A stretch of DNA of 34,509 nt. Origin: Planctomycetota bacterium. GTDB taxonomy: Bacteria; Planctomycetota; Phycisphaerae; Tepidisphaerales; Tepidisphaeraceae. Shown here piece after piece: positions 23,753 to 33,959 of this stretch; within the stretch, counting starts at the first letter, position 1, and every line of letters starts with the position of its first letter. Location: the NCBI GenBank assembly GCA_039182125.1, contig JBCDCH010000042.1, positions 1 to 34,509 on the forward strand, written 5' to 3'. The notes beneath the pieces were generated by a model, which was not told where the DNA came from, searched no databases, and was given only the letters and a program-made list of their open reading frames with translations. Made by a program: the position numbers and the translations under genes.

Positions 23753-23792
23753 CGTGTCGAACCCGGACAGGGAACACTTCAAGGGAAACTCT

Positions 23793-24344
23793 ATGAGCCA
23801 ATCTCAACTGATCCAACGGGCCGCGGTCTGCGGCATTCTTTTGACCGGCGTGACTCTCGGCGGCTGCACGAAGGAAGGCGGCGCGATCGGCGGCGCCATC
23901 GGCGGTGCGGTGCTCGGTGGTGTCATCGGCCACCAGATCGACGACGACAACGGCGCACTCGTGGGCGCGTTACTCGGCGCGGCCATCGGCGGCGGTGCGG
24001 GCTATTTCATCGGCAAGGAAATCGAAGAACGCCGCGAGGCCGATGAGTACGAAAAACGGCAGGCCGAGGAACGTTATCGGGACTTCCGTGACACCCTGCC
24101 CGAAGAACAGCTCGAGCAACTCGAAGAGTCCGGCGGCGACAACAACACCCGTGTCGCCCAGAAGGTCGAGGAAAACACCTACATCCTCGTCGACCCCGCC
24201 ACCGGCGAGGCGGAAGACACCGCCTACGTCTTCTCCGACGAAGGTCTGGCCGACATCCAATCCGCCCAGCGTCAAGGGCAGGTTCCCAAGCTCGACGAGT
24301 ATCAGGTCGTCTTCGCCCCCGACGACACGCTGCCGACAAGTTGA
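23793..24344 (+). CDS. Glycine-zipper lipoprotein
   Basis: This 183-residue envelope lipoprotein has signal peptide residues 1-30 with lipobox LGGC. Residues 35-80 form two glycine-zipper helices (GGAIGGAIGGAVLGGVIG and ALVGALLGAAIGGGAGYFIG) of the type that packs or inserts in membranes, as in SlyB/OmpA-like glycine-zipper proteins. A charged helix (EERREADEYEKRQAEERYRD) and a soluble acidic domain follow. GTG 23754 is in frame, but the ATG at 23793 has AAGGG 7 nt upstream and starts the signal peptide. It is followed by the hairpin at 24369-24421, then the kinase gene. Function is unknown; a role in envelope integrity is likely for the family. Confidence 0.8.
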   Translation: MSQSQLIQRAAVCGILLTGVTLGGCTKEGGAIGGAIGGAVLGGVIGHQIDDDNGALVGALLGAAIGGGAGYFIGKEIEERREADEYEKRQAEERYRDFRDTLPEEQLEQLEESGGDNNTRVAQKVEENTYILVDPATGEAEDTAYVFSDEGLADIQSAQRQGQVPKLDEYQVVFAPDDTLPTS

Positions 24345-24457: not shown

Positions 24458-27334
24458 ATGCCTCGCACCGATGCCCACCTCGACGACCCCGTGCTCGCGG
24501 GGTTTCCGCTGCAGTCGGGGTTTCGGATCGTGCCGCCGACGATCATCATCGAACGGCTCGGCGAAGGTGCCGCGGCGGTCGTCTATCGCGCCCGGCACTA
24601 CAACCTCGACACCGACGTCGCGATCAAGGTGCTCCGCAAGGATGTCGCCGCGAACAACCCCGACCTCGTCGCCCGCTTCCAGCGTGAGGCGAAGCTCGCC
24701 GCCCAGATCCGCAGCGAGAACCTCCTCGCCGTTCTCGACACCACGGACTACAACGGCACGCACTACACGGTGATGGAGTTGGTCGACGGCGAGAGCGTCG
24801 AGGGCCGGGTCCAGCGCCGCGGGCCGCCGACCGTCGCCGAGGCGTTGACGGTGACCCTGCACACCGCCAAGGGCCTGGCCGCGCTGCACCGCAAGAAGGT
24901 CGTCCATCGCGACATCAAGCCGAGCAACATCATCCTCTCCCGCGCCGGCTCGACCAAGCTCGCCGACCTGGGCATCGCCAAGCAGCACGAACAGTTCGAC
25001 ACGCTCGCCACCCACGCCAACGCCATCCTCGGCACGCCGCAATACATGGCCCCGGAGTTGTTCGAAAACGCGAGCAACGCAGGCGAACGTTCCGACGTTT
25101 ACGCGCTGGGTCTGACGCTGGCGTTCATGCTCACCGGCGAGCACCAGCACATGGGCAAGAGCCTGCCCGAAATCATCCGCGCGGTCTGCGACGGCGAGGC
25201 GTTCGACTTGTCCAAGCTCGATGTCGCGGTCAGCGACGACTTGTGCGTGCTGGTCAACCGCATGACCGCCCAGCGGGTCGACGAACGCCCGTCAACGCAA
25301 GAGGTGTTGCAGCTGCTCTCGCCGGTGCTGCTCGAGGTCGGCGGACAGGCCGAACTTGCCGACCCGCAGGCCAACAGCGCCTTCGGCACCAACGACATCC
25401 CCAGCCGCCTCGACCGCGACCGCATCTCCGAAATCCGTGCGGCGATGTCCACCGGCTTCGGCCCGCAGTACCCCGCGACCGTCGCCGAGAGCGGCGGCTA
25501 CACCCCCACCGTCGCCGAGTCCGGGCCCCAACCCGGGGCCGTCCGCATCCCCGCCGACCTGCAAGCCGACAACCGCCCGCCCGCGCCGCCGACCATGACC
25601 ACCGGCAGTGGCGGACGCGGCAAGTGGCTCGTGCTCGCCGTCGTGCTGCTGTTCTTCCTGTTGATCGCGAGCATCGGCGGAGTGCTGGGGGCGGGGCAGA
25701 TCGTGCACGGCGACTACCTTGCCTACACCGGGCTGGGTTCCGAAAAGGTCACGCCGACAGCCGGTGACGATCCGGCCGATGATGCCGCGCGGGCAGCCGA
25801 CCAAGCCGCCGCCGATGCCGCGAACGCCGCGGATACCGCCGGCGAAGGTGACGGTGATGATCCTGACCAGCCCGATGATCGGTCCGACCCGCCGGTGGCG
25901 AACCAGCCACCGGTCATCAGCGCGATCGGGCCACAGACCGTCGTGGCCGGCCAGACGCTCGGGCCGATCCAGTTCCGCGTCACCGACGACCGCACGCCCA
26001 CCGACAAGCTCGTGCTGCGGTTCAAGACCGACAAAGTCAACGTGCTGCCGAGCTCTCTGATCAAGGAGTTCGGCCAGATCGGCGGCGGTGAAGACCGGGC
26101 GATCATCATCGAGACGATCCCGAACACCGCCGGCCAAACCACCGTGACCGTCTCCGCCAAGGACCTCGACGGCGCGACGGGCCAGACGACGTTCGAGTTG
26201 GAGATCACACCGGTGGCCCCGACCCGTAACACACCTCCGACGCTCGCCGGCCTGCCCGAAGCCGCTCAAGGCAAGTTCGACACCATGGTGCTCCAGTTCG
26301 AGTTCACCCTGACGGATCAGGAGTCGCCCGACGACATCGCGGTGCGAGCGACCTCGTCGAACACGTCGCTCATTCCCAGCGCTTCGGCCAGACGTGACGA
26401 CGCGAATCGCACCAAGTGGTGGTTGACGCTCGTGGCCAACCCCGCGGCGTCGGGTGAATCCCAAATCGACATCGTCGCCACCGACAAGGACGGCGAACGC
26501 GCCACACACCGGATGCGGGTCACGATCAACCGCGAGCCACCGATGAGCCAGCACTTGGCCGATGCCCAGGCGCTGGCCAAGGAGCGACGGTTCGAACCGA
26601 TGCTCGACAAGCTGTTGAGCGCCGCCCGCCAAGCCAAAACCTTCGCCGAGATCCGTGAACTCCGCGACGTTTCGGAGCCTTTGCTGCGTGAACTGCGTGC
26701 CGAACTTTCGGACCCCGACCAACGCGAACGGCTTATCCCCGGGCTGCGGTCGGAGCTGCTCACCCTCGCCGAGGTCACCGACGGCCCGACCGCGCGCTTG
26801 TTGATCGTCGAGACGATTCTGCGCTACAAAGATCCGCCATATGGCGTGCAGTTGGTAGGGGTTCGAGACGTCACCAGGATCCAGGATTTCGGGCTCGCAC
26901 TGTCGAACGCGGTCGAAGCGGCCGAGGGCGGCGAGGTCGAAGCCATGGTGTACGCCGGCGACATTCTCACGCAGCACCAAGCGGGCGGCCCGAACCGGCG
27001 TTTGGCCGACGTGAAACTCGGCGCGACGTACCTGCAGCGTGGGGCCGATCAGAATCACGTCCCGGCCATGGCGCGCCTGGGCATTTATCTCCGACAGGCC
27101 GCGGTACAACGCCCCGAGGGTGATCGACAACGTGCCATCCTGCTCAACGATGCGACAAGCTTACTGCAGCGCGCGGCCAACGCCGGCCACGCCGCCGCCG
27201 CCCACGAGTACGCGATTTACCTGCTCAACTACGCTAACGATCAGAACGCTGGCCTGCGCTACCTCCGCCAGGCCGCCCGTGCCGGCTATCCCCCCGCCGT
27301 CGCCGGTGCCAAGCAGCTCGGCATTTCATACTGA
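24458..27334 (+). CDS. Transmembrane Ser/Thr protein kinase with Ig-like and Sel1-like repeats
   Basis: This is a 958-residue receptor-like kinase. The cytoplasmic kinase domain (about 28-290) has LGEGAAAVVY, Lys57 in VAIKVL, Glu77, HRDIKPSN (150-157, Asp152), DLG at 170-172 (in place of DFG) and APE at 198-200, so it should be active. After a Pro/Thr-rich linker, one transmembrane helix lies at about 388-412. An Asp/Ala-rich segment follows, then two Ig/cadherin-like domains (about 482-590, starting NQPPVISAIGPQTVVAGQ, and 591-690, starting NTPPTLAGLP). A helical stretch leads to a C-terminal Sel1-type repeat block (about 815-957: LQRAANAGHAAAAHEYAIYLL). No strong ribosome site precedes the ATG. 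It is convergent, 17 bp apart, with the MotB-like operon. The ligand and substrate are unknown; the neighbouring FHA proteins suggest phosphothreonine readers. Confidence 0.9.
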   Translation: MPRTDAHLDDPVLAGFPLQSGFRIVPPTIIIERLGEGAAAVVYRARHYNLDTDVAIKVLRKDVAANNPDLVARFQREAKLAAQIRSENLLAVLDTTDYNGTHYTVMELVDGESVEGRVQRRGPPTVAEALTVTLHTAKGLAALHRKKVVHRDIKPSNIILSRAGSTKLADLGIAKQHEQFDTLATHANAILGTPQYMAPELFENASNAGERSDVYALGLTLAFMLTGEHQHMGKSLPEIIRAVCDGEAFDLSKLDVAVSDDLCVLVNRMTAQRVDERPSTQEVLQLLSPVLLEVGGQAELADPQANSAFGTNDIPSRLDRDRISEIRAAMSTGFGPQYPATVAESGGYTPTVAESGPQPGAVRIPADLQADNRPPAPPTMTTGSGGRGKWLVLAVVLLFFLLIASIGGVLGAGQIVHGDYLAYTGLGSEKVTPTAGDDPADDAARAADQAAADAANAADTAGEGDGDDPDQPDDRSDPPVANQPPVISAIGPQTVVAGQTLGPIQFRVTDDRTPTDKLVLRFKTDKVNVLPSSLIKEFGQIGGGEDRAIIIETIPNTAGQTTVTVSAKDLDGATGQTTFELEITPVAPTRNTPPTLAGLPEAAQGKFDTMVLQFEFTLTDQESPDDIAVRATSSNTSLIPSASARRDDANRTKWWLTLVANPAASGESQIDIVATDKDGERATHRMRVTINREPPMSQHLADAQALAKERRFEPMLDKLLSAARQAKTFAEIRELRDVSEPLLRELRAELSDPDQRERLIPGLRSELLTLAEVTDGPTARLLIVETILRYKDPPYGVQLVGVRDVTRIQDFGLALSNAVEAAEGGEVEAMVYAGDILTQHQAGGPNRRLADVKLGATYLQRGADQNHVPAMARLGIYLRQAAVQRPEGDRQRAILLNDATSLLQRAANAGHAAAAHEYAIYLLNYANDQNAGLRYLRQAARAGYPPAVAGAKQLGISY

Positions 27335-27351
27335 CCCGCGCGGCCGCGTGC

Positions 27352-28542
27352 CTAGCGCAGCGCATCCTCGTTCACGATCCGGGCGTTCATGCCGGCGGGA
27401 ATCAGCACCTGTTCCATCACCCACAATGGCGGGTCCGCCGGGTCGCCGTTGGCGTCGACATACTCGACATAGAACCCGCCCCCCGGGTCGTAGCTGCGCA
27501 GGATGTTTTTGAGTTGCTTGGCCGTCATCGAGAGTCGGCCGACACGGACACGCCCGACGCCGTTGGCGGTGAAACGGACCCAGTTGCCGTTGGTGTTGGC
27601 GCGCGGGTGAACGGCGCGGAAACGTTCGTCGATCAGGTCGTGGTGGTAGGTCGGGTCGGTGCGGGTCGGCCCGTAAGAAAAGTTGAGTTGTTCTCGGTAC
27701 GCGTTGAGCACATCGGCCCGCATGCGCTTGGTGTTGGCCTCGTGATCGTCGTACCACGTGGTGCTGCCGAAGTCTCGACCGCCGATCAGATCACGCAGAC
27801 GCCGCGCGGCGCCGGGTCCAGCGCCGACTTCATTCTGAAACCGCCACGCCAAGTACACCGCCGACGCGACCGCGCCGTTGACGACCATGTGCTCGTCGTA
27901 ATCGACAAAGCCCAGGTCGGGCGCCATGAGCAGAAACTGCTCCAACGGCATCATCGTGATCTGGTCATCGAGAACGGCACGGCAAAGCTCGCGCACCGGG
28001 TCCGGGCCGTCTGTCGTGCGCGTCCCGCTGCGGTTGAGGTACCAGCGTGCGTTGATGTCAGCGTCGGTCCACGCGACCCAAACGTCGCCCTCGATCGGCA
28101 GTGCGATCAAATTGAAATACGTCTGCCCGGTCGAACCCTGAAAGCGGTTGGGAAAGACCAACTCGTTGGTCGCGTCCGCCGCCGCGGCAGCGGCGTCGGC
28201 CAGGGCACGCTCGGCGTCGGCCTTGGCTTTGGCGGCGAGTCGGGCGAACTCGGCGGCGGCGCGACGGAGTTCATCCTCGGCGGCGGCTTTGTCGGCTTGG
28301 GCTTGTGCGGCAAGCCTCGCCGCGTCGGCCAGTTCGGCACGCAGCTGCTTGGCGTCGGCGAGGGCTTGGTCGAGTTGTTCCGTCGGCACCAACGCCGCGC
28401 CGCCCGCGCCACCGCCGCCGGCTTGTCCGAGCTTGAGCACCAGTGCCATCACGATCACGATGAACAGCACCAGCGTGCAGAAGATCAAGTCACTGAACGA
28501 CTCGTAGAACGAACCCTCGGACCGTCGCGGGACGAGCTTCAT
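27352..28542 (-). CDS. MotB/ExbD-like channel subunit without a recognisable OmpA domain
   Basis: This is a 396-residue inner-membrane protein. Residues 1-17 are cytoplasmic and 19-42 are the single transmembrane helix. The motif SFSDLIFCTLVLF carries Asp18 in the position of the proton-binding Asp of MotB, ExbD and ZorB. A Gly-rich hinge (39-49) and an Ala/Glu/Lys/Arg coiled coil (about 52-125) follow, then a periplasmic domain of about 270 residues that I do not recognise. The MotB/OmpA peptidoglycan-binding signature is absent; the last 60 residues (TAKQLKNILRS, VEYVDANGDP, MEQVLIPAGMNARIV) faintly resemble the ExbD fold. The ATG overlaps the stop of the MotA-like gene (ATGA), so the two are made together. 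Confidence 0.78.
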   Translation of the reverse strand: MKLVPRRSEGSFYESFSDLIFCTLVLFIVIVMALVLKLGQAGGGGAGGAALVPTEQLDQALADAKQLRAELADAARLAAQAQADKAAAEDELRRAAAEFARLAAKAKADAERALADAAAAAADATNELVFPNRFQGSTGQTYFNLIALPIEGDVWVAWTDADINARWYLNRSGTRTTDGPDPVRELCRAVLDDQITMMPLEQFLLMAPDLGFVDYDEHMVVNGAVASAVYLAWRFQNEVGAGPGAARRLRDLIGGRDFGSTTWYDDHEANTKRMRADVLNAYREQLNFSYGPTRTDPTYHHDLIDERFRAVHPRANTNGNWVRFTANGVGRVRVGRLSMTAKQLKNILRSYDPGGGFYVEYVDANGDPADPPLWVMEQVLIPAGMNARIVNEDALR

Positions 28543-29327
28543 CCCGCACCGTCCATGCGTCGGTAGTACCCCTCGCCCTCGAGCCGCGCCGCCGTTCGGC
28601 GCATCGCCGGCAGGACGTACACCTCGGTCAGTTCCGAGAGGTGGGCCATGAACCGGAGGATGTTGGCATCGATCACGTTAGTGAGAATGCGCAGCACCAC
28701 GCCGCCGAAGATCGCGCCGAAGAGCGTGGTGTAGAACGCGGTGGAGAGGCCGCTCACCGTGATCTGCATCTGGGTCTGCAACGCGTCCATGTCCGACGCG
28801 TCGGTGCCGAGGACGCCGCTGAGCCCGCCGATGGAAATGAGCAGGCCGATGATCGTACCGATGAGACCGAGCGTGATGAGGATGCTGCCGAGCAGTTCGA
28901 CGACCTTGTTGCGTGCGACGAGCCGGGCGTGGGTGATCTCGATCAGCGAGTCCTGCTGGATGTTGGTGTCGGAGAGGAAGATCGTGTGCAGCGACCGGAT
29001 GTGCGAACGAAACACGCTCGGCTCGCTGTGCTTGAGAAAGTTGGCCACGTCGTTGAGTTCGACGAGCTGCTTGACCTGCTTGCTCGCCAGCTTCGCCTCA
29101 CGGTCGAGGCTGCGAATGTCGTTGAAGCTCTTGATCAACGCGCCGAGGAACAGCGCGACGATGACGATCACCATGTAGTCGAGCCACGGCACGATCCGCC
29201 CGAACCAGTACGCTCCGGCCAAAACGCATCCGCCGATCAGGCATACGAAAAACCACAGTAGCCACTGCCACTTGCCGGTGATGCCCGAGAGCTGGTTGGG
29301 GTAGGGCGACTCCATGGCGCGGGTCAC
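28539..29327 (-). CDS. MotA/TolQ/ExbB-like proton channel subunit
   Basis: This 262-residue protein has four transmembrane helices (about 20-42, 46-66, 144-170 and 186-213). Between the second and third is a charged cytoplasmic loop. The third and fourth hold the family signature: LGSILITLGLIGTIIGLLISI and VSGLSTAFYTTLFGAIFGGVV, with small residues and Thr lining the ion path. It should form the pentameric ring around a dimer of the MotB-like protein and use the proton gradient to drive motion. GTG 29327 overlaps the TGA of the FHA-protease gene (GTGA); ATG 29315 is an alternative. Its stop overlaps the motB-like start. No flagellar or TonB gene is near. Confidence 0.85.
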   Translation of the reverse strand: MTRAMESPYPNQLSGITGKWQWLLWFFVCLIGGCVLAGAYWFGRIVPWLDYMVIVIVALFLGALIKSFNDIRSLDREAKLASKQVKQLVELNDVANFLKHSEPSVFRSHIRSLHTIFLSDTNIQQDSLIEITHARLVARNKVVELLGSILITLGLIGTIIGLLISIGGLSGVLGTDASDMDALQTQMQITVSGLSTAFYTTLFGAIFGGVVLRILTNVIDANILRFMAHLSELTEVYVLPAMRRTAARLEGEGYYRRMDGAG

Positions 29328-31288
29328 TTCTTCCGTGCCTGCACGACGATGTAATGCACCTTCGTCGGCATGAGGCTCGACACCTTCACGGGGATGGTCA
29401 GCTCGGTGATGTTCGGCTCGGCGACGTGGAAGAAGCTGCCGTAGTAGGCGTTGACGAACTCCTCGGGGCCGACCGGGACGCGATTGATGCCTTCGGTGTC
29501 GTTGCCGATGATGAACTGCATGCCATGGCCGCCGCGCTCACTGCAGACGACCATGACGACCGGGCCCTGGCCCTTGACGATGATCTCCTCCTGGATCGGT
29601 GCCCGGCCCAGATCGAACGAGCCTTCGTTGACGACCACCAACTCCCGCCCGGCCATGACCGCCGGCATGTTCGCACGCAGCGCATCGAACTCGCTGCTTG
29701 CCAGGACTTTCATGAACCGCTGCGGGTCTTCGATGCCGCGCTCGAAGAGCGACTTGAACCGCGCTTCCCAGGCTTCGTTCCGCTTGGCCTGAGCTTCGGT
29801 GGCTTCGCCGTCGCGTAGCTCGGTGAGATAGCGGACCGGGGCCGCATAGCCGAAGCCCGACACCGAGAGCCGCGACCCGTCGGCGGAGATGCCCTGCATG
29901 TCGTTACCGAAGTTGAGCGCGACGACCTTGCCTTCGCCGTTGACGATCGGACTACCGCTGGCACCGCCGAGGCTTGGCAGGTCGTGACGGATGAACACTT
30001 CGCTGCCGCTGGTCGAGTCGTCGAGCGCGAGGCCGGAGAAGCCGGTAAGCGCGCCCTTCTTGGTCACCGGCGTCGGCGCGTCGTAGTTGACGCTCACACC
30101 TTCGGCGGGGAAGCCGGCGTAAGCGACCGACTGCCCGGGCCGGAGGGACACTTCGTCGGCCAGTTCCAACGGCGGTACCTGCTTCGCGATGTCGTCCTCG
30201 TGGACCATCATCAACGCAACGTCCGCCCCGCCGACCATCGGCATGAACGATCCGTCGGCCGGGAAGTACGGCCGGTACGCACGGTACAGCTTCGTGAAAC
30301 TCTCGTACCCCGGATGCAACTTGTAGTCGACCATCCGCAGGTCGTTGTCGGTACTGCCGCGACGGGCGACGACGAACTCGTCGTCGGTCAGGTCCTTCAT
30401 CATCTCGGCAACGTGGGCGTTGGTCGCGAGCTTGCCGGGCTCGAGACTCCACGCGGTACCGCTTCCGAGCCGGACGGGTTTGCCGTCGACGTTGCGGTAC
30501 TTGATGACCATGTAAACGCTGCCGCGGGTATCGGCGATGACTTGCTCCCAGCGCTCCTCGCTGGTCGGGCCCGATGTCTTGAGCGCGAACCAGCCGGCAA
30601 CGCCAGCGATGAGAATGAGCGAGAGCACGCCGACACAACCGAGCGCGGTGAGGGTCCGCTTGCGTTCCTTGCGAGTGGTTTCGTGGACCACACCCATGAG
30701 CGTGTTGAGGCCGACGGTCTGCTTGCCTTGCGGCAGGCCGGCGATCGCGCCCGGGGCGCCGGGCTTGTGGGCCGGCCGACTGGCGGCGGGCTTGGGCGGG
30801 CCACCGAACGGACGGACCGAGGGCGTGTCGGCGGCCATCGCGTCCTCGAACGCCTGCCCCTGCGGCACCGGCCCGCCACCCACCATCGTCGCCGGCCCGG
30901 CGGCATCGACCTGATCGGCGAATTTCACCAACAACGCCGGACCGCCCTGCCCGAGCGTGAGGCGGTCGTTGACGCCGAGTGGCGTGGGCCGCTCGACCTT
31001 GACACCGTTGATGTACGTCCCGTTGCGACTGCCGCAGTCGTTGACGACGATCGCCCGGCTTGAGGCCGTGTCACCGTCGGAGGATTTGACCTGGATCTCG
31101 GCGTGCTTGCCGCTCACGAGCGTGTCGACGTTGACGTCGAAGACGATGTCGTTGTCCTCGCGTCGGCCGAGCGTGATCACGTCCTTGTCGAACGTGTCTT
31201 CCCGACCGGCGAGGGAACTGTTCGCGTGACGAATGATGATCTTGTTGTCGTCGGTCATTGGATCGTCGGGCATGTGGTCGTCGGGCAT
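29324..31288 (-). CDS. FHA-domain, transmembrane, trypsin-like protease
   Basis: The 654-residue protein joins three modules. A cytoplasmic FHA domain (about 15-125) has GRREDND at 41-47, SGKH at 59-62 and the phosphothreonine-contacting SRNGT at 87-91. A Pro/Gly linker and a transmembrane helix (about 213-236) follow. Next is a periplasmic trypsin-like S1 domain with GSGTAW, His292 in TNAHV, Asp356 in GGADVAL and Ser444 in GASGSPIV, a complete triad. The last 110 residues are beta-rich and unrecognised. The start is decided by GGGAGG 5 nt before ATG 31288 (the long open frame to 31717 is an artefact). Its 3' end overlaps the MotA-like gene. FHA recognition of a phosphorylated partner that controls the protease or motor is inference. 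Confidence 0.87.
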   Translation of the reverse strand: MPDDHMPDDPMTDDNKIIIRHANSSLAGREDTFDKDVITLGRREDNDIVFDVNVDTLVSGKHAEIQVKSSDGDTASSRAIVVNDCGSRNGTYINGVKVERPTPLGVNDRLTLGQGGPALLVKFADQVDAAGPATMVGGGPVPQGQAFEDAMAADTPSVRPFGGPPKPAASRPAHKPGAPGAIAGLPQGKQTVGLNTLMGVVHETTRKERKRTLTALGCVGVLSLILIAGVAGWFALKTSGPTSEERWEQVIADTRGSVYMVIKYRNVDGKPVRLGSGTAWSLEPGKLATNAHVAEMMKDLTDDEFVVARRGSTDNDLRMVDYKLHPGYESFTKLYRAYRPYFPADGSFMPMVGGADVALMMVHEDDIAKQVPPLELADEVSLRPGQSVAYAGFPAEGVSVNYDAPTPVTKKGALTGFSGLALDDSTSGSEVFIRHDLPSLGGASGSPIVNGEGKVVALNFGNDMQGISADGSRLSVSGFGYAAPVRYLTELRDGEATEAQAKRNEAWEARFKSLFERGIEDPQRFMKVLASSEFDALRANMPAVMAGRELVVVNEGSFDLGRAPIQEEIIVKGQGPVVMVVCSERGGHGMQFIIGNDTEGINRVPVGPEEFVNAYYGSFFHVAEPNITELTIPVKVSSLMPTKVHYIVVQARKK

Positions 31289-31420
31289 GGCGGCCTCCCA
31301 TGCGATGTTAAAGCCGGTGCGGGGCCACGCAATCGAAACCCAGACCCCGTCGGCCACGAACCGGCCATCCCGGTCCGGCACTTTTGTCCCCCCGTCTGTC
31401 GGTTGCACGCATGGGCCGGC

Positions 31421-32920
31421 ATGACGACCATGCCCAAAGCCATGCCCGAAGAAGACACTCCGCAATCGCCGACGCCAGAAACCCAGGCCGAAGTTCCGGC
31501 GCAAGCGTCGGCGCAACCACCGGCCGATCCGGTTCCGACCGTCGTCGAATCGGCCACGCCCTCGGCCGGCAGCGATGGCCTTCGGCTCACGTTCGTCACC
31601 GGGTCCAAGGCCGACACCGAGTTCGTCTTCAACGGTCACGCCCTGCCGTTCGGCCGGTCCATCGACGAGGGATTGCGGTTCGACGCCAACATCGACGGCA
31701 AGGTCTCGGGCCGACACGGGCAGTTCCGCCGGGACGATCGCGGCACGACCTGGCTCGTCGAAGATTACGGCTCAACCAACGGCACCTTCGTCAACGGCGA
31801 ACGTGTCGTGAAACCGCTGCCGCTCAAGCACGGCGACGCCGTCATCCTCGGCGACGCCAACGATCACGGCGTCGTCATCCGCGTCGCGATCGGCGACGCA
31901 CCGCTGCCACCGGAGACCGTCGCCGAGCCGCCGGCACCCGCCACGCAGTCGACCCCGCCAGCCCCCGCAGCCGCGCGGGAAGACGGCGGCTTTTTCTCCG
32001 GCATCAAGGGCGCGTTCAGCCGCTACACCGAACGCCGGCAGCTCAACAAAGACCTCGCCCGCGTGCATGGGGAGTTGACCAGCGCCAAGGCGGCCGCCGG
32101 CTCGGCGCTGCAAACGCTCGGCGTCGCGCTGGCCACGCGGGCCGTGCTGGGGCGGATGGAGTTCGCGGGCCTGCCGGCAACGGTCGCACTCAATGACGCC
32201 GCCGACGAGTCGGCCGGTCTGGACGCGGAACTGGACGAACTGGCCGGTGAGCGCGAGACCGCCGAAGCCGCTCACGACGTAGCCCTACGTGAAGCCGACG
32301 CCGCGATCACCGAAGCCGAGCAGGTCGTTTCCAACGCCGAGTCCGCCAAGACGGCCGCCGACCAAGCCAGGACCGACGCGGACACCGCCCTGCGTGAAGC
32401 GCTCGCGCCTTGGAAGTCGGCGGCGACCGGCGCGAAGGACAGCACCGCGGCGTTTTTGACGCAACTCCAAAGTGCCCCGATCGAATGCGACGCGTCCGAG
32501 ACGGCGGCAGCACTGCGAGCGGCGGCCGAGTTGCTCGATGTCTCGCCGGACAATCTCGACGGCATCCGAGATACCGCCCGCCGCGCGGCCGACGAGGCGA
32601 CCGCCGCCGAGGATGCCCTGGACGCCGCCCGCGGCGACCTCAAGTCCAAGCAGGATGCCCGCAGCGACGCAGACCAAACCCACCGCGCGGCCTTGGCCGA
32701 ACTCGAACGCCAGCGCACCGAGATCGTCGGCCGACAGTCGGCGTTGAACGCCCGCCTCGCCGAGCATCACATCGCGCTCGGCGAGGTGGCGGTCGAAAAG
32801 CTGCCGGCCGATTTCCGCGACGACGACGCCTGGCGGGCCGCCACCACCGCCGTCGCCAACCGCACCGCCAAACAGGACGAGCAGGCCGACCTCGAACGCC
32901 GTCTGGCCGAGTTGGGATAA
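31421..32920 (+). CDS. FHA-domain protein with long coiled coil
   Basis: The 499-residue protein begins with an acidic Pro/Gln/Ala-rich leader (1-50). An FHA domain follows at about 52-155 with FGRS (77-80), SGRHGQF (96-102) and DYGSTNGTFVNG (115-126), the complete phosphothreonine-binding set. After a Pro/Ala linker comes a short amphipathic segment (FFSGIKGAFSRYTERRQL), then an Ala/Glu/Asp-rich helical region with coiled-coil character from about 250 to 490. There is no transmembrane helix. The start could be ATG 31421 or 31430; no ribosome site is seen. It is divergent from the FHA protease with 132 bp between starts, and ends at a hairpin. It may be a cytoplasmic adaptor for the kinase and motor proteins. 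Confidence 0.82.
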   Translation: MTTMPKAMPEEDTPQSPTPETQAEVPAQASAQPPADPVPTVVESATPSAGSDGLRLTFVTGSKADTEFVFNGHALPFGRSIDEGLRFDANIDGKVSGRHGQFRRDDRGTTWLVEDYGSTNGTFVNGERVVKPLPLKHGDAVILGDANDHGVVIRVAIGDAPLPPETVAEPPAPATQSTPPAPAAAREDGGFFSGIKGAFSRYTERRQLNKDLARVHGELTSAKAAAGSALQTLGVALATRAVLGRMEFAGLPATVALNDAADESAGLDAELDELAGERETAEAAHDVALREADAAITEAEQVVSNAESAKTAADQARTDADTALREALAPWKSAATGAKDSTAAFLTQLQSAPIECDASETAAALRAAAELLDVSPDNLDGIRDTARRAADEATAAEDALDAARGDLKSKQDARSDADQTHRAALAELERQRTEIVGRQSALNARLAEHHIALGEVAVEKLPADFRDDDAWRAATTAVANRTAKQDEQADLERRLAELG

Positions 32921-33149: not shown

Positions 33150-33959
33150 ATGCAACGCTCACTCATCGCCGGCCCGTTCGCGGCCGCGCTCCTGCTGGCC
33201 GCTGCCAGCTCGGCACACGCCCAGGCACCCATCAGTTCCACCTTCGACACTGACCTCGACGGCTGGTCGGCTCTCGGCTTCGATGTCGATGTGTCGGTCA
33301 TTCCGCTCGGCGTCGACTTCACCGAAGTGGACAACACCACCGACATGGTCCACAGCGCCACCGGGGGCAATCCCGGCGGCTACGCCGAACTCACCGACGC
33401 CATTGAAGAACCTTCTTCTTTCGCTTCGGCCCCGGCTAAGTTCCGCGGCGACCTCTCGGCCTACGTCGGGGGAACCCTCAGCTTCGACTACGCACTATTC
33501 GACGCTGGCACGCCCAACTCCGGTATCTCCCCGCTGACCGTCGCGGTCTTCTCCGGCGACGTCGACGACCTCAACGCACTGATCTGGATCGGCGACGCCC
33601 CCACGCCCGGACCGGACTGGAACTCGTTCGAACTTGCCTTCGACACCGCCGACAACGGCGGCGACTTCGTCCCGGTGCAAGAGTTGCAGGTCTCCGAACT
33701 CGGCACGCTCTTCGGCTTCGACGTTCCGATCGGCGGCACGGTCGGCGACCTGCTCGGCCCGGCCACGCTCACCCCCACCGAGATCCTCGCCAGCGTCGAC
33801 CGCATGATCCTGCCCTTCGAGGTCGTCGACAACGACGGCACCCAAAACCAGGAAGACGCCGGCCTCGACAACGTCCTGCTCACCGCCGCCGCCATCCCCG
33901 AACCGACAAGCCTCGGCATGCTAGCCCTCGGCGGCCTGATGCTGCGTCGGCGGCGGTAA
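33150..33959 (+). CDS. Secreted PEP-CTERM protein, laminin-B-like
   Basis: This 269-residue exported protein has signal peptide 1-24 (cut after AHA). The mature domain starts SSTFDTDLDGWSALGFDVD and has GGNPGGYAEL, a pattern of the laminin-B/CBM-like jelly-roll domains common in planctomycete surface proteins. The C-terminus is a PEP-CTERM sorting signal: IPEPTSLGM, a hydrophobic helix, then RRRR. This should be processed by an exosortase and the protein anchored or released. An AAGGGAGA ribosome site lies 9 nt before the ATG. The gene stands alone after a hairpin. Confidence 0.9.
   Translation: MQRSLIAGPFAAALLLAAASSAHAQAPISSTFDTDLDGWSALGFDVDVSVIPLGVDFTEVDNTTDMVHSATGGNPGGYAELTDAIEEPSSFASAPAKFRGDLSAYVGGTLSFDYALFDAGTPNSGISPLTVAVFSGDVDDLNALIWIGDAPTPGPDWNSFELAFDTADNGGDFVPVQELQVSELGTLFGFDVPIGGTVGDLLGPATLTPTEILASVDRMILPFEVVDNDGTQNQEDAGLDNVLLTAAAIPEPTSLGMLALGGLMLRRRR

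Follow-up and report, generated by a model that had tools for sequence, protein, structure and literature searches.

Does a receptor kinase that lies beside two FHA genes, a membrane-anchored protease and an ion-motor pair belong with them to one envelope machine, or have these genes merely come to lie together? This question is raised by a locus in the window, by which we mean the whole stretch of 34,509 nucleotides of planctomycete DNA analysed here. Members of the MotA/TolQ/ExbB superfamily are known as the motors behind flagellar rotation, gliding, transport at the outer membrane and defence against phage. The original prediction placed such a motor pair among five neighbouring genes, and an ORF check confirmed that all five are open, intact and arranged as first described.

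The receptor-like Ser/Thr kinase gene, identified by ORF call and Pfam, occupies positions 24458-27334 on the forward strand. It is followed on the reverse strand by the genes for a MotB/TolR-like motor subunit (27352-28542), a MotA/TolQ/ExbB-like motor subunit (28539-29327) and an FHA-TM-trypsin protein (29324-31288), and then on the forward strand by a second FHA gene (31421-32920), encoding a soluble FHA protein with a long coiled coil. Since the likeliest start of the FHA-trypsin gene is ATG 31288 (654 aa) and that of the second FHA gene is ATG 31421, the two are divergent and 132 bp apart. The three reverse-strand genes form an operon in the order FHA-trypsin, MotA, MotB. The 4-nt overlaps proposed between them were found by script to be exact: the start codon of MotA shares GTGA with the stop codon of FHA-trypsin, and that of MotB shares ATGA with the stop codon of MotA. 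As had also been proposed, the kinase and the second FHA gene flank this operon, the former on the opposite strand and convergent with MotB, the latter divergent from the operon. The neighbouring genes in the window are metabolic. Recent transfer was considered on the basis of base composition, of which no clear sign was found (the GC content of MotA, 0.627, is below that of its neighbours, but its GC3 is 0.90).

Upstream of the kinase, a gene at 23754-24344 on the forward strand encodes a glycine-zipper lipoprotein with a C-terminal tail (Pfam Gly-zipper_Omp, 1e-9), possibly a sixth member of the cluster. Directly after the second FHA gene, a secreted protein (33150-33959) carries a tail that looks PEP-CTERM-like by eye; Pfam gave no match for it. 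Outside the window, contig C2 of the same genome carries further kinase and FHA domains about 5 kb apart, at 38482 and 43388.

One product of the operon combines an FHA domain (Pfam, 5.9e-17) and a trypsin-like domain (Trypsin_2, 2.4e-14) in one protein. Its predicted layout is a cytoplasmic FHA domain, one transmembrane helix (222-240), a periplasmic HtrA/V8-like protease and a C-terminal extension. The catalytic triad, His301/Asp365/Ser453 as counted in the 663-residue translation that begins at 31315, and the core residues of the FHA domain are intact, and the triad is invariant in 12 relatives. Pfam, transmembrane prediction and the triad thus agree with the claim that one of two FHA proteins is joined through a membrane helix to an intact trypsin-like domain. 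Structure comparison assigned the protease part an HtrA/V8, HtrA/DegS-like fold. The protein resembles HtrA/Deg proteases in fold and triad but differs from them in that Pfam found no PDZ domain and in that the FHA domain lies on the predicted cytoplasmic side. Fusions of this kind were catalogued in 2008, at the level of architecture only (PMC2605481); FHA-FHA-Tryp of Bacteroides thetaiotaomicron (NP_811686.1) likewise has FHA N-terminal to a trypsin-like protease, whereas the window protein is encoded together with motor genes.

The first motor subunit, of 262 aa, belongs to the MotA_ExbB family (PF01618, 6.8e-8, 32.8 bits against a cut-off of 22.9). It has four predicted transmembrane helices and ends about 40 residues past the last of them. 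Alignment showed that a Thr in TM3 and another in TM4 are conserved across the subfamily. The second subunit has one predicted transmembrane helix (18-36), followed by a coiled coil and a C-terminal domain (about 313-388). Asp18 in this helix is invariant among 10 aligned members, within a motif, ESFxDLxF, common to the MotB proteins of the subfamily. Pfam gave no match for the window MotB, neither to a flagellar/OmpA-type domain nor, at the sequence level, to ExbD, and about 180 residues between its coiled coil and C-terminus have no family match.

Residues 313-388 gave VIA Z scores of 5.7 (2jwk; 65 residues, 2.8 Å) and 5.5 against TolR, and of 3.7-4.1 against ExbD, where the best unrelated globular fold reached 4.2. 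The top-ranked row (Z 6.2) is a long-helix match with an rmsd of 28.6 Å, and Foldseek gave E values above 1. The model of the window MotB is of low confidence overall, with a mean pLDDT of 52 and residues 126-319 poorly modelled. With moderate confidence, the structural comparison suggests that the C-terminus is a TolR/ExbD-type periplasmic domain. A single transmembrane helix with an Asp, a coiled coil and a TolR/ExbD-like fold would together make the pair a Ton/Tol-type motor. The prediction of an ion-motor pair therefore holds, while its type appears to be Ton/Tol and not MotB; the OmpA-like peptidoglycan-binding domain of flagellar MotAB was not detected by Pfam in the window MotB, residues 126-319 of which are modelled at low confidence. 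The window pair shares with ExbB-ExbD and TolQ-TolR the MotA_ExbB-family A subunit and a B subunit with a transmembrane Asp and the putative TolR/ExbD-like domain. It is unlike them in the four predicted helices of its A subunit, in the long coiled coil and the roughly 180 unassigned residues of its B subunit and in having an FHA-protease instead of TonB or TolA.

Relatives of the motor were sought in 392 genomes of the phylum; all prevalences given here are figures for this sample, with mechanical gene calls for the relatives. A search with the MotB C-terminus led to genome G378, where the neighbouring gene is a MotA with 43% identity to that of the window over 244 residues. With a two-row MotA profile, strong members were also picked up in G335, G421 and G401; a five-row profile brought in G555. 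In a scan of genome contigs, the sole match was the G378 record JAUHZU010000001.1 (Phycisphaerae). Searches of viral contigs with the MotB C-terminus and with MotA, and of plasmids, found no relatives. At E 1e-10 the subfamily was present in 7 of the 392 genomes, 5 of them with strong matches. The motor pair is therefore a member of a small, patchy planctomycete subfamily. A tree built from 22 MotA-like rows proved too shaky to give an order within the subfamily.

In a distant genus, g56, each of the five species sampled has the gene order short FHA gene (divergent), MotA, MotB-PDZ (MotA 65-89% and MotB 50-90% identical). The motor pair has no FHA neighbour in three other genera, g111 and g288 of f41 and g58 (genomes G335, G421, G401 and G555). 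Of the five genera with the motor, two thus have FHA beside it. The MotB proteins of the g56 and f41 members (seen at loci L012, L067-L070 and L021-L023) have a Deg-like PDZ domain between the coiled coil and the C-terminal domain. The window MotB has no PDZ domain and shares its operon with a trypsin-like protease; the two together resemble a split HtrA. In G555 (L046, 5260-10493), a VWA-like domain takes the corresponding position in MotB, and the motor genes are followed by genes for lipoprotein-like, coiled-coil and repeat proteins. More distant MotA-like genes at L060, L061 and L024, whose partner bears a VWA domain in L060 while other coiled-coil proteins fill this role elsewhere, suggest further uncharacterised motor types in Planctomycetota.

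Some of these observations bear on the idea that the cluster is a Zorya-related anti-phage system with the protease and kinase as effector or regulator. The best PADLOC matches, which concern the membrane core, are ZorA1 for MotA (1.2e-6) and ZorB1 for MotB (4e-5, N-terminal residues 7-75 only). The best solved relative of the MotA profile (E 0.002) is 8vvn, a 696-aa MotA/TolQ/ExbB-domain protein, which to judge by its length is ZorA. The distribution of the motor is patchy; in G401 the pair adjoins an integrase, and in G555 it adjoins a type IIG restriction enzyme, an SMC-like ATPase and an integrase fragment, so that the latter locus is possibly a defence island. The g56 cluster, however, lies in conserved, partly housekeeping surroundings, and the window genes nearby are, as noted, metabolic. 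Zorya is characterised by a long cytoplasmic tail on ZorA, a peptidoglycan-binding domain on ZorB, and ZorC/ZorD or ZorE (PMC11890865). The 262-aa window MotA has no such tail (the matched PADLOC ZorA models span 461-1063 positions), the window MotB appears TolR-like and not OmpA-like at its C-terminus, and no ZorC, ZorD or ZorE was found among the five proteins. Since both the tail and the accessory genes are missing, membership in Zorya fails, and a defence role for the window cluster is weakly supported; we regard it as improbable.

The nearest precedent is instead the Agl-Glt gliding machinery (AglRQS plus GltG) of Myxococcus xanthus, in which GltG, a bitopic protein with a cytosolic FHA domain, interacts with AglR (PMC3169522). 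Like the window locus, it pairs a TolQ/TolR-type motor with a bitopic FHA protein, and it is on this precedent that the FHA-trypsin protein is proposed here as the partner of the motor. It is a separate matter whether the window encodes a surface-motility or surface-transport machine of the same kind. In favour of this are the shared arrangement, a motor together with a bitopic FHA protein, and a weak similarity to the FHA domain of GltG (NF033760, 7e-5). GltG ends in a TonB-like domain, whereas the window protein has none and ends in a trypsin-like protease; there is one TolR-like gene, not two; no other Glt-type component was recognised among the window genes examined; and a receptor kinase lies adjacent. 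A machine of this kind is therefore very improbable.

As a check, the original prediction proposed a search of planctomycete genomes for the MotB-like C-terminal domain together with the FHA-trypsin gene; no second case of the two side by side turned up in the sample. The protease part has relatives in 13 of the 392 genomes, that of the window counted in, and those of G078, G147, G044, G377, G384 and G013 also have the FHA domain, but no FHA-trypsin relative elsewhere in the sample adjoins a motor of the window subfamily. What recurs is proximity to kinases: in G078 the FHA-trypsin gene sits between kinase genes, and in G147 its divergent neighbour is a kinase gene encoding eight Sel1 repeats. 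It would be possible that the protein is a regulated signalling protease like DegS, whose fold it resembles, with the kinase tuning proteolysis through the FHA domain alone and the motor as an incidental neighbour. The pairs without a motor in G078 and G147 favour such an arrangement, but in the window the protease and motor genes overlap translationally, which argues against it, and we consider it quite improbable.

The kinase itself has a Pkinase domain (1e-46) with intact HRD and VAIK motifs. Its predicted layout is a cytoplasmic kinase domain, a transmembrane helix (391-409), a periplasmic Ig-like region and Sel1/TPR-like repeats. It had been described as carrying Ig and Sel1 repeats; the kinase assignment stood, but the Ig-like match remains under the Pfam cut-off (Big_9, 17.5 against 23.6 bits), and Pfam reported no Sel1 family, although Sel1-like repeats are visible by eye and the kinase of G147, a relative, has eight of them. 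The second FHA protein has an FHA domain that passes the Pfam cut-off (1.1e-13). With kinase motifs and FHA residues intact, the proteins may belong to a Hanks-type kinase/FHA pathway.

The closed genome G013, from the window's own family, is informative in this respect. It encodes a relative of FHA-trypsin along its full length (33% over 580 residues). At a distance of about 2.75 Mb lies an FHA-coiled-coil gene whose direct neighbour, downstream across a gap of about 110 bp, encodes a kinase. This kinase is 39% identical to that of the window over 333 residues, an alignment that also takes in flanks of the kinase domain. The MotA profile matched nothing in G013. The simplest reading is that the kinase and the second FHA gene are an old pair, between which the window has the FHA-trypsin/motor operon. 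Lipoprotein-like genes adjoin the G013 pair and also occur in the G555 motor operon; the likeness between the window lipoprotein and the G013 neighbour was not significant by BLASTP. Two genes from the G013 pair (L077, 1857-5576) lies a gene for a large DUF4159 protein with a zinc-ribbon start.

These results could also mean that the locus consists of two independent units: a Ton/Tol-type motor operon for ordinary outer-membrane energisation, which gained a gene for an FHA-protease, and a kinase/FHA pair that flanks this operon but has nothing to do with it. Motor pairs without FHA in G335, G421, G401 and G555, the lack of this motor beside FHA-trypsin in every other genome where that gene was found, and the distance of about 2.75 Mb in G013 are consistent with this. 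The conserved FHA and motor genes in five g56 species and the recurring pairing of kinase and FHA-trypsin are not, and two FHA genes and a kinase would fall within 8.5 kb somewhere in the window's genome by random placement with p of about 0.005, an estimate for a genome of 4.13 Mb that holds 14 kinase domains and 9 FHA domains. Independent units therefore seem unlikely, though they deserve serious weight.

Chance neighbourhood of all the parts, as a sole explanation, was rejected, because three pairwise associations recur: FHA with the motor (g56, 5/5), kinase with FHA-trypsin (G078, G147) and kinase with the second FHA gene (G013). The neighbourhood thus exceeds pure chance as regards the pairings, but the five genes are not a conserved cassette, since the full set was found in no other sampled genome. 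The locus is unlikely to be a product of pure chance and seems to be a modular assembly of recurring, partly known modules, not a conserved fixed system. In agreement with the original statement that no named system is known with this gene set, the open literature searched (closed papers lay outside it) holds no description of the combination of motor, FHA-protease and kinase; as far as could be searched, it is the combination itself that is undescribed.

The explanation we prefer, to which we give somewhat less than an even chance, is an envelope machine under kinase and FHA control, built on a Ton/Tol-type motor that has the bitopic FHA-protease where others have TonB, TolA or GltG. The motor, which would be proton-driven, seated in the inner membrane and of the ExbB/TolQ-ExbD/TolR type, would be co-translated and form a complex with the FHA-TM-serine protease, which would fill the slot of TonB/TolA in Ton/Tol and of the FHA-bearing GltG in Agl-Glt. 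The receptor kinase, with its sensor outside and its kinase domain inside, would phosphorylate threonines near the FHA domain and in juxtamembrane regions. Two motifs between the FHA domain and the membrane, GP(A/S)T(M/I) and G(L/M)NTLM, are common to the FHA-trypsin proteins of the window and of G013, and their threonines are candidate sites. Phosphothreonine binding by the FHA domain might then couple or uncouple protease and motor, so that proton flow would drive or position proteolysis of putative periplasmic substrates, perhaps in envelope maintenance or a stress response. Several facts count against this explanation: the full set was seen in one genome only, three other motor genera have no FHA neighbour, the kinase lies off the operon, FHA-trypsin relatives have no neighbouring motor gene of this family, and the MotB model is of low confidence.

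It is possible, though doubtful, that the locus stands for a class of protease machine not described before, driven by protons and gated by phosphothreonine, in the envelopes of planctomycetes. The FHA-TM-protease would then be the output subunit of an ExbB/TolR-type motor, in the role otherwise played by TonB/TolA. The presence of FHA domains on or beside such motors, as in GltG, suggests a recurring route to kinase control. If such a machine exists, it would tie proton force, kinase signalling and proteolysis together across the envelope, in a phylum for which little is understood about that structure.
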